Of a DNA stretch of 64,000 nt, positions 5,545 to 62,208 are shown in pieces; within the stretch, counting starts at the first letter, position 1, and each line of letters opens with the position of its first letter. A program made the position numbers and the translations under genes. This DNA is from Synechococcus sp. PCC 7336. GTDB lineage: Bacteria; Cyanobacteriota; Cyanobacteriia; Thermostichales; PCC-7336. The stretch spans positions 1,783,268-1,847,267 of the forward strand of contig NZ_CM001776.1 in the NCBI RefSeq assembly GCF_000332275.1, in the 5' to 3' direction. The notes beneath the pieces are model-generated. The model did not search any database. It saw only the letters and a list, made by a program, of their open reading frames with translations, and was not told the DNA's origin.

Positions 5545-8337
5545 ATGACCATCTGGAAAAAAAGTCTGCTGGCACAGCTCGTTGCCTATTTTTCGTTGTT
5601 GTCAGTTGTCACCATCTGCATTGTGGCAGGGGCTGCCTATCAGCGGGCGCGCGATTCGCTCTTGGACTCTACCCGGGATCGCTTGCGAGTGGCGGCTTCC
5701 CTCAAGCAACTTCAGTTGGGAGATTGGGTGGATCACCAGCGCAAGGACGTGCTGTTGCTCGGCGAATTAGATCGAATGCGGTCTCTCGTGCGAGAGATGA
5801 TTTTGAACGAACCGGAAAGCGAAGCCTATCGAGGAGCAGCACTTCAGTTGAGCCGATATTTCGAGAGGGTTAGCCAAATCAAGCCCAATCTGAATAGCTT
5901 GCGCGTCACCAGTAATGGTGGATTTGTCGTGTTTGCCTCAGAGGCTTCGCTGCAGGGGGCCCGCTACCAAGCGCTCGGATTGCCGACCACTTACTTTACA
6001 GCAGCAACTGTCAATAGCATTGTGCCGAATTTTTACCTGAATGAAGGGGAGGCTGCCATCACATTTGCCACCCCCGTTTTTGACAGTCAGGGGGAGCAAA
6101 TGGCCGCGATCGCCGTTGACCTAGATTTAGCTGAAGTGGATACCCTCATTCGCGAACGCACCGGTCTGTGGGAAAGTGCCGAAACCTATTTGGTCGGTCG
6201 ATCGGGGGAACGGTTTGCGTTTATTTCGCGGGACGACTCAGAGGATAGGGACGCAGCAGCAGAGTCGGTGGCAGAGCCCGTCAGTCCGGCCATTGAAGCG
6301 GCGATCGTCGGACGGGGCTCGGGTTGGGGTCTCTACAAGAATTATCAGGGTGTGCCTGTCGTCGGGGTTTACCAATGGCTGGACGATCAAAATGTGGCCC
6401 TGTTGGCGGAAGTAAGCCAGCACGAGGCGTTTGCCCCCGCTCGCCGTCTCGCCCGCGAGATTCTGCAGATCGGATTGAGTTCGGCAGGGTTGCTGTTGGT
6501 GGGGGTTTACCTGCTGTCGCGGCGCATTACCCTGCCAATTTTGGCGATCGCCCGATCTGCCAATCGCCTAGCCAACGGCGATCTAGACTGCCAAGTACAC
6601 GAGTTAACGCAAGACGAAATTGGCCTGTTAGCCAAATCCTTTAACCGCATGTCCCAACAGTTGCGGGAGTTGGTCAACAATCTCGAATTGCAAGTGGCCG
6701 AGCGCACCCAAGCACTAGAAATCAGTAAGAAGGAAGCGGAGGAAGCTCGAATCTCGGCAGAAGCTGCCAACGCAGCCAAGAGTTCTTTTCTAGCCAATAT
6801 GAGCCACGAACTTCGAACGCCGATGAATGCCATTATTGGCTATAGCGAAATGCTGATCGAAGAAGCAGAAGAATTAGAACCGGAAGAATTTGTTCCAGAT
6901 TTGCAAAAAATTCGCACTTCGGGCAAGAACCTCTTGGAGTTAATTAATGGCGTGCTCGATCTCTCCAAGATTGAAGCCGGACGGATGGAGTTGTATGTCG
7001 AGTCGGTCGATCTATACAAGCTCGTGCAGGAAGCGTGCGTACCCATTTATCCCTTAGCCAGCAAGAACGACAATGTATTGGAGGTGGAGTGCCCCGAAGA
7101 TATCGGTATGGTGCGGGTAGACCTTACCAAGGTCCGTCAATGTTTACTCAACCTGTTAAGTAATGCCTCTAAGTTCACCCATGCAGGCCAGATCGTCCTG
7201 AGTGTGAAGCGCATTGCGGTAGCGGGGGAAAGCGACACGATTGAATTGCAAGTGCGCGATAGCGGCATTGGCATGAGCCCCGAGCAGTTGGATAAGGTGT
7301 TCGATGCTTTCAGTCAGGCAGATGCCTCCACCACCCGCAAGTACGGCGGGACCGGCTTGGGGTTGGGAATTGCCAAGCAATTTATCGAGATGATGGGGGG
7401 GACGATCTCCGTCACCAGCGAACCGGGTGTGGGCAGTACCTTTACCGTCCGCTTACCGGCAGAAGTGGATCGCGAGCCGAAGGCTGCTGACCGCTTGTCT
7501 GGATCGATGGCCAATGGCTTGCGCCCTGGCGAAGCGCCAAAAGTCTTAGTCATTCACGATCGCTCCGAGGTGGGGCAAGAGCTCCAAGAGTTTTTAGCCA
7601 AGTCTGGGTTCCAGGTCGAAATGGCACCTCCCACCCAAGCTGCGCTCGATCGCGCTCGGGAAATCAAACCCGATGCCATTACCCTCGACGTTCTCGACTC
7701 CCAAATGAACAGTTGGGATCTGCTGTCTGCTTTCAAACAGGATGCGACACTGCAGGCGGTAGCGGTGATATTAGTGTCGATTCAGGATCTAGACCAATGC
7801 GGTTATGCGATCGGGACAACTGATTATTTGACCAAACCGATCGATCGCAAGTACTTGGGCTCATTGCTCGAACGGCAGGCCGAGAACTGCGACAATCAAA
7901 TCGTGCTGGTGGTGGAGGACGATCTCGACACCCGCGATACGATTGTCCGCTTGGCGGAAAAGTACGGCTGGACGGCGGTGGAAGCAGCCCACGGTCGCGA
8001 GGCGCTGCAGCAGTTGCGCCAGACCACTCCCAGTCTGATCCTGACCGATATTGTGATGCCAGAAATGAATGGCTTCGAGTTCCTCAATCTGCTGCGGGCT
8101 AATCCAGATTGGCGATCGATTCCTGTGGTTGCGATTACTTCTAAAGAGTTGAGTAATGCCGAACGGCAGCAGCTTCAAGGCCAGGTTCAATCGGCGGCCA
8201 ACGCGACAACATGTCTCGTGGATGGGTCGTTCGAGCAGGTGAAGCAGCAATTGTTGAATGTCCTCTCGGCCCCAGCCAAGGCGAATACGGCCCCAGCCAA
8301 GGCGAATACGACTTCAGCCAAGGCGAATACGGAGTGA
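5545..8337 (+). CDS. Hybrid sensor histidine kinase (Cache-HAMP-HisKA-HATPase-REC-REC)
   Basis: This 930-residue membrane sensor kinase begins with a transmembrane helix (about 10-32), followed by a periplasmic Cache-like domain (about 40-290), a second transmembrane segment (about 305-325) and a HAMP linker. The dimerisation box FLANMSHELRTPM carries phospho-accepting His421. The ATPase domain has an N box (LLSNASKFT), DSGIGMS and GGTGLGLGIAKQF. Two receiver domains follow, with likely phospho-Asp715 and Asp835. The first receiver is weak: it starts VLVIHDRSE, without the usual acidic pair. The C terminus ends in a threefold heptapeptide repeat (APAKANT). The response regulator 88 bp downstream is a natural partner. 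Confidence 0.9.
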   Translation: MTIWKKSLLAQLVAYFSLLSVVTICIVAGAAYQRARDSLLDSTRDRLRVAASLKQLQLGDWVDHQRKDVLLLGELDRMRSLVREMILNEPESEAYRGAALQLSRYFERVSQIKPNLNSLRVTSNGGFVVFASEASLQGARYQALGLPTTYFTAATVNSIVPNFYLNEGEAAITFATPVFDSQGEQMAAIAVDLDLAEVDTLIRERTGLWESAETYLVGRSGERFAFISRDDSEDRDAAAESVAEPVSPAIEAAIVGRGSGWGLYKNYQGVPVVGVYQWLDDQNVALLAEVSQHEAFAPARRLAREILQIGLSSAGLLLVGVYLLSRRITLPILAIARSANRLANGDLDCQVHELTQDEIGLLAKSFNRMSQQLRELVNNLELQVAERTQALEISKKEAEEARISAEAANAAKSSFLANMSHELRTPMNAIIGYSEMLIEEAEELEPEEFVPDLQKIRTSGKNLLELINGVLDLSKIEAGRMELYVESVDLYKLVQEACVPIYPLASKNDNVLEVECPEDIGMVRVDLTKVRQCLLNLLSNASKFTHAGQIVLSVKRIAVAGESDTIELQVRDSGIGMSPEQLDKVFDAFSQADASTTRKYGGTGLGLGIAKQFIEMMGGTISVTSEPGVGSTFTVRLPAEVDREPKAADRLSGSMANGLRPGEAPKVLVIHDRSEVGQELQEFLAKSGFQVEMAPPTQAALDRAREIKPDAITLDVLDSQMNSWDLLSAFKQDATLQAVAVILVSIQDLDQCGYAIGTTDYLTKPIDRKYLGSLLERQAENCDNQIVLVVEDDLDTRDTIVRLAEKYGWTAVEAAHGREALQQLRQTTPSLILTDIVMPEMNGFEFLNLLRANPDWRSIPVVAITSKELSNAERQQLQGQVQSAANATTCLVDGSFEQVKQQLLNVLSAPAKANTAPAKANTTSAKANTE
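8268..8330 (+). repeat. 21-bp tandem repeat, three copies, at the 3' end of the hybrid kinase gene
   Basis: The unit GGCCCCAGCCAAGGCGAATAC occurs twice without change (8268-8288 and 8289-8309), then once with changes confined to its first bases (8310-8330). It is in frame and adds the heptapeptide APAKANT/TSAKANT just before the stop codon. This looks like a recent in-frame expansion of a disordered tail. Confidence 0.95.
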
Positions 8338-59227: not shown

Positions 59228-60906
59228 ATGACCGATCCCTTTACCTGGATTCCTGTTGCGACGGCTGTTTTGTCGGGGCTGATTCAGCATGTGGGTGAGA
59301 AGGTGCTGGAGCGAGGAAGTGAGAAGTTTGAGGGGGCGGAGGAGAAGAGAAGGCGCGGCTTTGGGGGGCGAATGCGGAGGCGGTGGCGCGAGAGTATGCG
59401 TTCAAGTATGGGAAGCGGCACGGGCAGTTGAAGGTGTTGCGGATGCGGGAGCCGATTCCGCTGGAGAATGTGTATACAGCGGTAAAGTTGCTGGATAGCT
59501 ATTCCATTCGAGAGTATTCCACGCCCGAGGAGTTAGAGCAGTTATTTCGAGAGAATAATCGTAGGCTGTTCTATCTGGAGATAGAGCCAAAGCTCGGTGG
59601 GCTTGCGGTAGCGAATAGGAAGCAATATCTTGCGGTGGTGGGCGGTCCGGGGGCTGGCAAGTCTACATTTTTGCGCAAGGTGGGTTTGGAGGCGCTAAGG
59701 GGAAAGGATGGGCAATTCGAGCACGAACTACTGCCTGTGTTTTTGGAGCTGAAGCGATTTAACTCTGATGAGATCGAAATTGAGTCATCTATTGTGGAAG
59801 AGTTTCGCACCTGTGGGTTGCCTCACCCAGAGGAGTTTGTGGCGGCGGCGTTGGCGCAGGGGCAATTATTAGTATTGTTGGATGGCTTGGATGAGGTACC
59901 ATCGCGCAATCTGAATCAGGTGGTGGAGAAGATTCAGGATTTCGCAGATCGATACTCGAACAATCGGTTTATTTCGTCTTGTCGGACGGCGGCTTATCGC
60001 AACTGCGGCGGGCTGAAGCAGTTTATAGATATTGCCATTGCGGAGTTTGATGGCGGGCAAATAAAGCAGTTCGTGCGCAATTGGTTTCGGTCGGACTCAG
60101 ATCGCGAGGCTGGCACGGCAGATACCTTTTTGGAGTTGCTAGAACGTCAGGAGAATCAATCGGCGAAGGAGTTGGCGCGGACGCCGCTGCTGCTGACGTT
60201 TTTGTGTTTGGTGTATGACTACTCGCAAAACTTGATGACCAATCGGGCGGCGCTGTATGGCAAGGCACTGGACATTCTGTTAGAAGAATGGGCGGCGGAG
60301 AAGCGGGACAAGATTTACGAAGGCTTCCATCCCCGCTTGGAAAAGGTGCTGCTGTCGGAGATTGCCTACCAAAGTTTTGAAGAGGATCGGCTGTTTTTTT
60401 CGGAAGAGAGCACGATTGCGCAAATTACTGAGTTCTTAGCAGAGACATTAGATGCTCCGAAGCATTTGGATGGGAAGCAAGTGTTGGATGCGATCGAGGT
60501 GCAGCAAGGAATTTTGGTAGAACGTGTGGAAGGCGTGTATTCCTTTTCTCACTTGACCTTGCAGGAATATTTGACCGCCCGCTACATTGCCCAAGAGCCA
60601 GAGCGGATAGACGCAATGGTTAAAGAGCATCTGACAGATGCGCGATGGAAGGAAGTATTTCTTTTAGTGGCGGGGTTGCTGGACCGAGGAGATTGCCTCC
60701 TGACCTCGATGTTAGAGCGTACGGCAGTGCTGAGTAGCCCCGCTGCTGCTAACACCCTGGCGATCGCCTTCCAACTCCCAAGACCTCAAACGCGGTCGCA
60801 CCTACAGCATTTGAGGCGATCGCATCCCGGCAAAGCAGTTGCTGAGAAGAGAGTTGGATTTGAGGCGATCGCCCTACCTGAGAAGCAAGCAATCGCGCGG
60901 CAGTAG
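59228..60906 (+). pseudogene. NACHT-domain STAND NTPase, frameshifted and C-terminally truncated
   Basis: The first frame starts MTDPFTWIPVATAVLSGLIQ and runs to about 59345. The reading then continues in another frame (EKARLWGANAEAVAREYAFKYGKRHG) up to 60906; the shift lies in the purine-rich stretch at about 59340-59356. The second part has an N-terminal helper region, the P-loop GGPGAGKSTF, Walker B LLVLLDGLDEVP and the Arg-rich GNARTPLLLTFLC-like sensor helix ELARTPLLLTFLCLV, all typical of NACHT. The expected C-terminal repeat region is missing; the last 40 residues look out of frame. NACHT proteins often act in phage defence. Confidence 0.8.
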
Positions 60907-61218: not shown

Positions 61219-61451
61219 TACAGATTGCTTAGCCGTTCTTTAACAACCTGCCAGCTCGATCCAGCCTCTGGAGTTTGACTGTATTGCCCTAGCCGACGAT
61301 CCAGCTCTTGTTGCTGTGGCTCAGTGACAGTTACTGCTTCAGGCGTTGAGAGAATACTGTCCCAAAGGTCCTCGGCTAGCTGTATTCGCTCGGCAATGCT
61401 TATCTGGTCAATGTCAACATTCAGTAGAGGTTGCACGGTTTTTATTGTCAT
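61218..61451 (-). CDS. Addiction-module antitoxin (TIGR02574-type)
   Basis: This 77-residue acidic protein matches the small addiction-module antitoxins that usually precede ParE/RelE toxins: QISIAERIQLAEDLWDSI is the typical helix, and QQQELDRRLGQYSQTPEAGSSWQVVKERL the toxin-binding tail. The gene comes first in the operon, in the standard antitoxin-toxin order, and shares one base with the toxin start. It would neutralise the toxin and probably regulate its own promoter. Confidence 0.88.
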   Translation of the reverse strand: MTIKTVQPLLNVDIDQISIAERIQLAEDLWDSILSTPEAVTVTEPQQQELDRRLGQYSQTPEAGSSWQVVKERLSNL

Positions 61452-61565
61452 AACTCAATGGCGATCTCAATTGTAGCTGGGAGTAGTGGACTGACGGCGA
61501 GCAGTTCATTCCGAGGCATGCAAGCTGGGTTTGAAGCGATCGCCCCCCAGCAATCTTCCAAGTCC

Positions 61566-61738
61566 GAGATACCACTCCACCGCACCGAGATATTATTCCT
61601 CCGCCCTGAGATGTGATGCATCCGCATCGAGATGCCATTCCGCCGTACTGAGATGTCATTCCACCGCATTGAGATGTGATTCATCCGCACTGAGATATCA
61701 ATACACCATATCGAGATGTCATTCCACCGCACCGAGAT
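61566..61738. repeat. 21-bp tandem repeat, about nine units
   Basis: The block GAGAT recurs at 61566, 61587, 61608, 61629, 61650, 61671, 61692, 61713 and 61734, an exact period of 21 bp. Consensus between the marks is roughly G(T/A)CATTCC(A/T)CCGCACT. Because 21 is seven codons, all frames are periodic; the minus strand reads as a heptapeptide of the type MRWNDIS/VRMNHIS. It lies in the 412-bp gap before the interrupted gene at 61864. A GTG at 61732 could start a minus-strand frame, but no ribosome-binding site supports it. Confidence 0.9.
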
Positions 61739-61863
61739 AATGCGATCGAGCTTTGAGGACTAGCAAGTCAGTAGCCATTGACAATATCTCAGCCACCATA
61801 ATGCATCGGAATACACGGATTTACGCCATATGAATTAAATTTTAGGCTAAAACTCAATCTGTT

Positions 61864-62208
61864 TTGGCGACAATCGTGACCATCAATCAAAGCTACGACG
61901 AATTCTTTAGCGACGCTAACCTAGCCATCGAAGGAGCCCTAGCCAGCCCCCGCATCTTAGAAGCCCTTGCCCCCTACGGCTACCCCCAAGACCGAATTCG
62001 CGAAGGCCAACGCCTCTACACCGCCGCCCTCAACGCCCAACAATAACAGCAACGCCAATACGGCACCCAAATCGGCACCACCGCCACCCTCAACCAACAA
62101 AGAGAAACAGCCTACACCGCCTACATCCGCCACCTCCGCATCGCCCGCATCGCCCTAGAAAGCGACCCCCAATTACTGGAAGCAATGGGGGTATTGGTCA
62201 GGTCTTGA
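61864..62208 (+). pseudogene. Small protein gene interrupted by an in-frame TAA
   Basis: The frame reads MATIVTINQSYDEFFSDANL (from a TTG at 61864) through ILEALAPYGYPQDRIREGQR and then AALNAQQ, a TAA at 62044-62046, and continues in the same frame as QQRQYGTQIGTTATLNQQRE through YIRHLRIARIALESDPQLLE to a TGA at 62206-62208. Both halves are protein-like and of one helical style, so a single CAA to TAA change is likely. The alternative start is a GTG at 61876. I have a general impression of similar helical proteins in other cyanobacteria, but cannot name the family. The C-terminal part also looks short. Confidence 0.6.

Follow-up and report, generated by a model that had tools for sequence, protein, structure and literature searches.

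A probable diverged member of a dispersed 21-bp intergenic minisatellite family in Synechococcus sp. PCC 7336

The window analysed here, a stretch of 64,000 nucleotides from Synechococcus sp. PCC 7336, contains a tandem array that is probably a diverged member of a dispersed, non-coding 21-bp minisatellite family that occupies intergenic regions in several families of cyanobacteria. The array consists of eight full 21-bp units on the forward strand (61566..61733) with the consensus GAGATGTCATTCCACCGCACC, and was delineated by TRF, by lag identity and by R3, a model built from other genomes. It is best read as a non-coding tandem array (minisatellite), from a family whose arrays gain and lose whole units of two helical turns.

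GAGAT marks begin at 61566, 61587, 61608, 61629, 61650, 61671, 61692, 61713 and 61734, always spaced by 21 bp. The ninth (GAGATA, 61734..61739, forward strand) starts a truncated unit, which opens with GAGATAATGC before the sequence departs from the repeat. The exact spacing of the nine marks, already described in a preliminary description of this DNA, is confirmed and lies far above chance. Lag-21 identity is 70%, compared with a mean of 25% and a maximum of 39% in 1000 shuffles, and the array is the strongest periodicity of the window among lags 10–69. TRF reports positions 61564-61738 with a period of 21, 8.3 copies, 70% matches and 0% indels, in agreement with the earlier statement that the period is exact although the units differ; there are 29 substitutions relative to the unit consensus. 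A 63-bp period outscores the 21-bp period in TRF (78% matches). Because lag-63 identity is 79%, the units follow a three-unit higher order, a feature absent from the preliminary description. A 7-bp rhythm in the variable columns was considered and rejected (p 0.08). An RNA or DNA hairpin function was rejected, as the array folds less stably than its shuffles (z +2.1, +1.2 and +2.05), and no Rfam match was found at E 1.

The perfect seven-codon period had been taken to suggest selection for reading frame or for helical phasing, with heptapeptide potential on both strands. The minus-strand heptapeptides proposed at that time are correctly translated, but their frame is just one of two that are open across the array: frame +1 (RCHSTAP) is open over 61531-61740 (69 aa) and frame -1 (VRWNDIS) over 61448-61732 (94 aa). 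At the end of a TIR ORF, a second array in the genome is likewise read in the +1-type frame, and in frame -1 none of the changes creates a stop, versus an average of 2.5 under random placement. However, open frames are to be expected wherever a stop-free seven-codon unit repeats. The preliminary description asked whether substitutions favour synonymous sites, and no excess of this kind appears in any of the six frames. For frames +0, +1, +2, -0, -1 and -2, the synonymous changes number 6, 6, 11, 5, 9 and 9 of 29, and the probability of at least as many when the same changes are placed at random is 0.90, 0.81, 0.18, 0.94, 0.38 and 0.29, respectively. When four related loci (L092-L095) are compared in the same register, each of the six homologous frames meets a stop either in the array or in at least one of the four loci. 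The homologue of frame +1 contains stops in L093, L094 and L095 and that of frame -1 a stop in L092, while frame -2 is open in all four but has a stop in the PCC 7336 array. Neither open array ORF matches any Pfam family. A translated heptapeptide repeat thus fails on both synonymous excess and a conserved open frame, and is extremely improbable.

The ORFs around the array include NACHT, ParE, antitoxin, pentapeptide and S41 peptidase types. On the minus strand, an Unstab_antitox-family antitoxin ORF (PF09720, 61218..61451) starts 114 bp from the array and adjoins a ParE-family toxin ORF (PF05016, 60919..61218). These are preceded by a NACHT-domain ORF on the plus strand (59383-60906), and the arrangement could represent a defence or addiction neighbourhood. 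On the other side, 126 bp past the array, a plus-strand 60-aa ORF with no Pfam match (61864..62046) ends at an in-frame TAA (62044-62046), behind which the same frame runs on (61864-62205). This could be a broken gene. The window carries a further 21-bp repeat (8267-8332, 3.1 copies) that lies within a long open frame and is therefore probably a coding heptapeptide repeat.

The second array of the 5.07-Mb genome (G000) was located by a BLAST search with the first, at G000:C1:4652943-4653014 (74% identity over 72 bp, E 1.9e-5). It comprises 3.6 units with a 21-bp period and keeps the three-unit order, its ATCCGCA-type unit occupying the corresponding position. It is located at the 3' end of a TIR_2-domain ORF, before a Tn5-type transposase gene. 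In 464 kb of this genome, made up of the window and 400 kb sampled at random, there was no other non-coding array with a period of 21, 42 or 63.

Similar repeats exist in other cyanobacteria, as had been anticipated, and were recovered by profile searches and TRF. Among 388 Cyanobacteriia genomes, BLAST with the array as query retrieved no other array outside its own genome; three weak matches (G123, G242 and G307; L014-L016) contain no 21-bp array. A loose two-unit pattern led to a 21-bp array of related sequence in G358, and its matches in G202 proved to be near-identical, CRISPR-like repeats ~68–76 bp apart that are unrelated. Profile R1 was built from the PCC 7336 and G358 arrays, and a 63-bp profile (R2) was made later. 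At E<=0.05, R2 matches 48 of the 388 genomes. TRF confirmed arrays at R1 or R2 matches in 18 of the 28 genomes whose regions were checked (27 of these 28 being R2-positive), and these 18 span five families (f1, f13, f25, f32 and f33). Several genomes, such as G280, G333 and G337, have two or more such arrays. A scan of genome contigs for TGCAATGNCA-N11-TGCAATGNCA gave at least 120 stretches, and 79 of the 120 among the matches listed overlap a TRF array. Sorted by title, 39 of 80 matches listed are cyanobacterial loci, mostly from Nostoc, with periods of 21 (32 loci), 42 (4), 63 (2) and 20 (1). In the profile searches, off-period matches are L158 and L160 (20 bp) and L153 (18 bp), and no period-21 TRF array occurs at the matches in L136, L137, L140, L149, L150, L151, L155, L156, L159, L162 and L100 (G216); L134 was left uncounted, as its 21-bp TRF row begins 47 bp beyond the match. 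The non-cyanobacterial matches listed in the contig scan come from scattered phyla, and some have 21-bp arrays. Records whose titles name Acidobacteria, Planctomycetota and Cytophagaceae hold 21-bp arrays of 12 to 29 copies that match the TGCAATGNCA pattern (L194:3248-3849, L224:3279-3523 and L231:5403-5715). Such arrays are expected because a tandem array easily satisfies a two-copy pattern. No plasmid or phage relatives were found by blastn.

The pooled family unit, GACTTGCAATGCCATTGCATC, combines a 15-bp palindrome with a spacer of 6 bp. Typical relatives carry the palindrome TGCAATGSCATTGCA in every unit, and arrays of the genus g82 have just half of it. The genes adjoining the related arrays are of many kinds and vary from site to site. 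A link to NACHT, TIR and pentapeptide conflict genes was considered, but most arrays found later adjoin genes that look unrelated, and the link was retained for one orthologous site alone. The arrays probably constitute a dispersed intergenic family that extends across several cyanobacterial families.

The one orthologous site is found in six species of g82, where an Hsp20 gene is followed by the array and then, in all but G358, by a large gene. The flanks are conserved, and the array contains 9, 8, 7, 8, 4 and 2 whole units in the six species, the array of G268 (L137, ~two units) being recognised by alignment alone. The large gene is NACHT-HEAT in the three loci that were Pfam-scanned (L093, L094 and L096), with an additional TIR domain in L093 (G175); in G268 and G280 it was assigned by its similar N-terminus. 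In G358 the array is kept with no large gene seen downstream. The large ORFs lie at L093:8012-11493, L094:8011-11789, L095:3992-7336 and L096:4465-8125, and the array ends ~65 bp (~40 bp in L096) before their start. In L093, L094 and L096 it thus falls within the promoter region of what may be a defence gene. Across five g82 species the flanks show 47 gap events to 599 substitutions summed over pairs (0.078). Inside 40 arrays the aligner placed 18 gaps to 587 substitutions, a lower ratio that is no proof of missing indels because the arrays were chosen by TRF and some gaps (8 in L141) are probable misalignments.

The PCC 7336 array is probably a distant, degenerate member of this family, judging from its similarity to a model built without its genome. 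The R1, R2 and pattern searches all included the array, so that similarity is partly built into them; R3, a 63-bp cross-species model, was therefore made from 18 stretches of other genomes, leaving out that of PCC 7336. The best match of R3 in all 5.07 Mb of G000 is the array itself (61629..61681, forward strand; E 1.5e-5, 27.4 bits), and its second-best is the second array, at an E of 0.12 that is near background. In five other genomes searched alongside, the best E values were 0.034, 0.19, 0.31, 0.35 and, in one, none below 5. When profile scores were compared with those of 2000 column-permuted versions, the array gave p 0.033 with the Nostoc/f32 profile, 0.0125 with f25/f33 and 0.026 with all 38 arrays, groups whose make-up depends less on it. 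With the g82 profile, which is ascertained, 0 of 2000 permutations scored as well. Corresponding values for the second array were 0.0075 (g82), 0.087 (Nostoc/f32), 0.070 (f25/f33) and 0.099 (all). The PCC 7336 array thus has the tandem units and the lack of coding constraint expected of the family (units of 20–21 bp, or 42/63), and resembles in register a profile made without its genome, ranking first with R3 and less strongly by permutation. It keeps just the ATGNCATT part of the palindrome, and TGCAATGSCATTGCA with up to one mismatch is absent from the window and from a further 400 kb sampled from G000. The idea that arrays are seeded by dispersed single cores was rejected, such cores being no more frequent than expected by chance in the G000 sample.

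The family link has to be weighed against chance resemblance, in which the array would be an independent minisatellite confined to two copies in one genome and unrelated to the TGCAATG family. This rival shares its mechanism with the preferred reading and differs from it in the family link only. Just 13 of 21 positions agree with the Nostoc-type unit (counted by hand in the best register), the permutation values for the family link are modest (0.01–0.03), and 21-bp arrays of unrelated sequence do occur in G333 and G374. However, the two arrays of G000 are the top two R3 matches of the whole genome, and the PCC 7336 array aligns on one strand and in one register with all of the g82, Nostoc/f32, f25/f33 and pooled profiles; chance resemblance is therefore doubtful, if a possibility to be taken seriously. 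A quite different proposal makes the array the operator or silencer of the adjoining ParE/Unstab_antitox operon. Read along the minus strand, the array does lie upstream of the antitoxin start, at a distance of 114 bp, and some local regulatory role this near to the operon start is possible. However, type II toxin-antitoxin systems usually autoregulate through short operators located at their promoters. The 3-kb locus of the second array contains no recognisable operon of this type (two ORFs Pfam-scanned), nor was any toxin-antitoxin gene recognised beside the related arrays (from a listing of flanks, with part of the neighbours Pfam-scanned), and the proposal is very improbable.

The main rival is a phased operator array, which would account for both the palindrome and the spacing. 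Here each unit would be the putative site of a dimeric DNA-binding protein, repeated every two turns on one helix face, with a role in chromosome organisation or local regulation. The palindrome in each unit of typical relatives suggests this, as do the persistence of the array at the orthologous site in six species, where the intergenic flanks accumulate indels at the rate given above, and the finding that all six matches to the TGCAATGSCATTGCA core (up to one mismatch) in sampled G333 DNA fall inside arrays. More generally, the strict unit length over an old divergence, together with the shared palindromic core, would also fit selection for protein binding. In G333 and G374 the length bias extends beyond the family. 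With arrays counted as non-coding when no open frame of at least 180 codons covers them, the non-coding periods of at least 18 bp were 21 (4), 41, 42 (5) and 62 (2) in 400 kb of random samples from G333, and 21 (3), 39 (2), 41, 48 and 63 (2) in 200 kb from G374. Of these 21 periods, 18 (41 and 62 among them) differ by no more than 1 bp from a multiple of 21, although any binomial p for this proportion is post hoc. Most of the 18 arrays look unrelated in sequence to the family. Long examples in G333 unrelated to the TGCAATG family are L145:4875-5162, L319:9496-9728 and L320:13797-14012, each with 10 to 14 copies of 21 bp. Periods of 41 and 62 bp (four arrays) suit helix turns better than codons; these four, two with a period of 41 and two with 62, are the only ones that tell helix and codon apart, because 14 of the 18 periods are also multiples of 3. 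However, a single sequence-specific protein is disfavoured because the 21- and 42-bp arrays of G333 and G374 are unrelated in sequence. Samples of G000, G268, G380, G288, G031, G148 and G020 show no such period bias, both core matches in G268 fall outside arrays, and the family includes a few arrays whose unit is 20 bp (L158 and L160). The palindrome is largely lost in the PCC 7336 array, and neighbouring genes vary. A phased operator array is thus unlikely. A broader version, in which a dimeric protein or a duplication machinery measuring helical pitch would fix the unit length at two turns while the unit sequence drifts (as in PCC 7336) or is replaced (as in G333 and G374) with its spacing kept, is quite unlikely. 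Of the earlier suggestion of helical phasing, two turns as an explanation of unit length is still live, while selection for phase is unsupported by the array, whose 29 substitutions and 0 indels are weak evidence alone, given that ~2 indels are expected at the flank rate.

Arrays of the family gain and lose whole units, either one at a time or two or three together, as the differing unit counts at the orthologous site and the periods of 42 and 63 bp show. These changes probably arise by slippage or unequal recombination between units, and substitutions build up inside units whose length stays constant. Most simply, the length of about two turns may be set by the pairing of units during duplication; alternatively, spacer DNA may tolerate phase-neutral changes alone. 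As no neighbouring gene is consistently served, the default reading makes the array neither part of a gene nor an operator but a self-perpetuating repeat that is tolerated, and the array would be presumed neutral.

The known intergenic repeats of cyanobacteria are mainly the 7-bp STRR sequences, whose unit is a heptanucleotide, the LTRR sequences, with a unit of 37 bp, and HIP1 (GCGATCGC), an abundant palindrome that is dispersed singly. Plasmid iterons are direct repeats of ~21 bp with two-helical-turn spacing; no replication initiator gene was recognised beside the PCC 7336 array, however, which lies on a chromosome-sized contig and has no similar plasmid DNA among the sequences found. HIP1 is likewise a short palindrome and is present in some units of g82 arrays, but it is absent from the eight PCC 7336 units, and the family takes the form of 21-bp arrays. 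Bacterial minisatellites (VNTR) resemble the family in that arrays vary by whole units at one site between related genomes, whereas the family is strongly restricted to 21 bp and its sequence is common to unrelated sites and cyanobacterial families. The short tandemly repeated repetitive (STRR) sequences of filamentous cyanobacteria (PMC2670836) are likewise intergenic tandem repeats dispersed in cyanobacterial genomes. In the 39 cyanobacterial loci among the matches listed, mostly from Nostoc, 21 arrays of 7-bp period lie in 270 kb outside the target arrays, as for STRR. However, the unit of the PCC 7336 array is 21 bp rather than 7, its lag-7 identity of 25% is at chance level, and the 21-bp family has a different, palindromic core. 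The long tandemly repeated repetitive (LTRR) sequences of Anabaena/Nostoc PCC 7120 are also intergenic cyanobacterial tandem repeats, some with predicted hairpins (PMC2408588), and the PCC 7336 array, with its period of 21, is set apart from them on unit length. The literature searched, which excluded most subscription papers, contained no description of 21-bp arrays in cyanobacteria, nor five of the unit sequences as text. A 21-bp family common to distant lineages, frequent in Nostoc and varying by whole units could provide strain-typing markers and, of greater weight, would put to a direct test the idea that bacterial tandem repeats owe their unit length to helical pitch.
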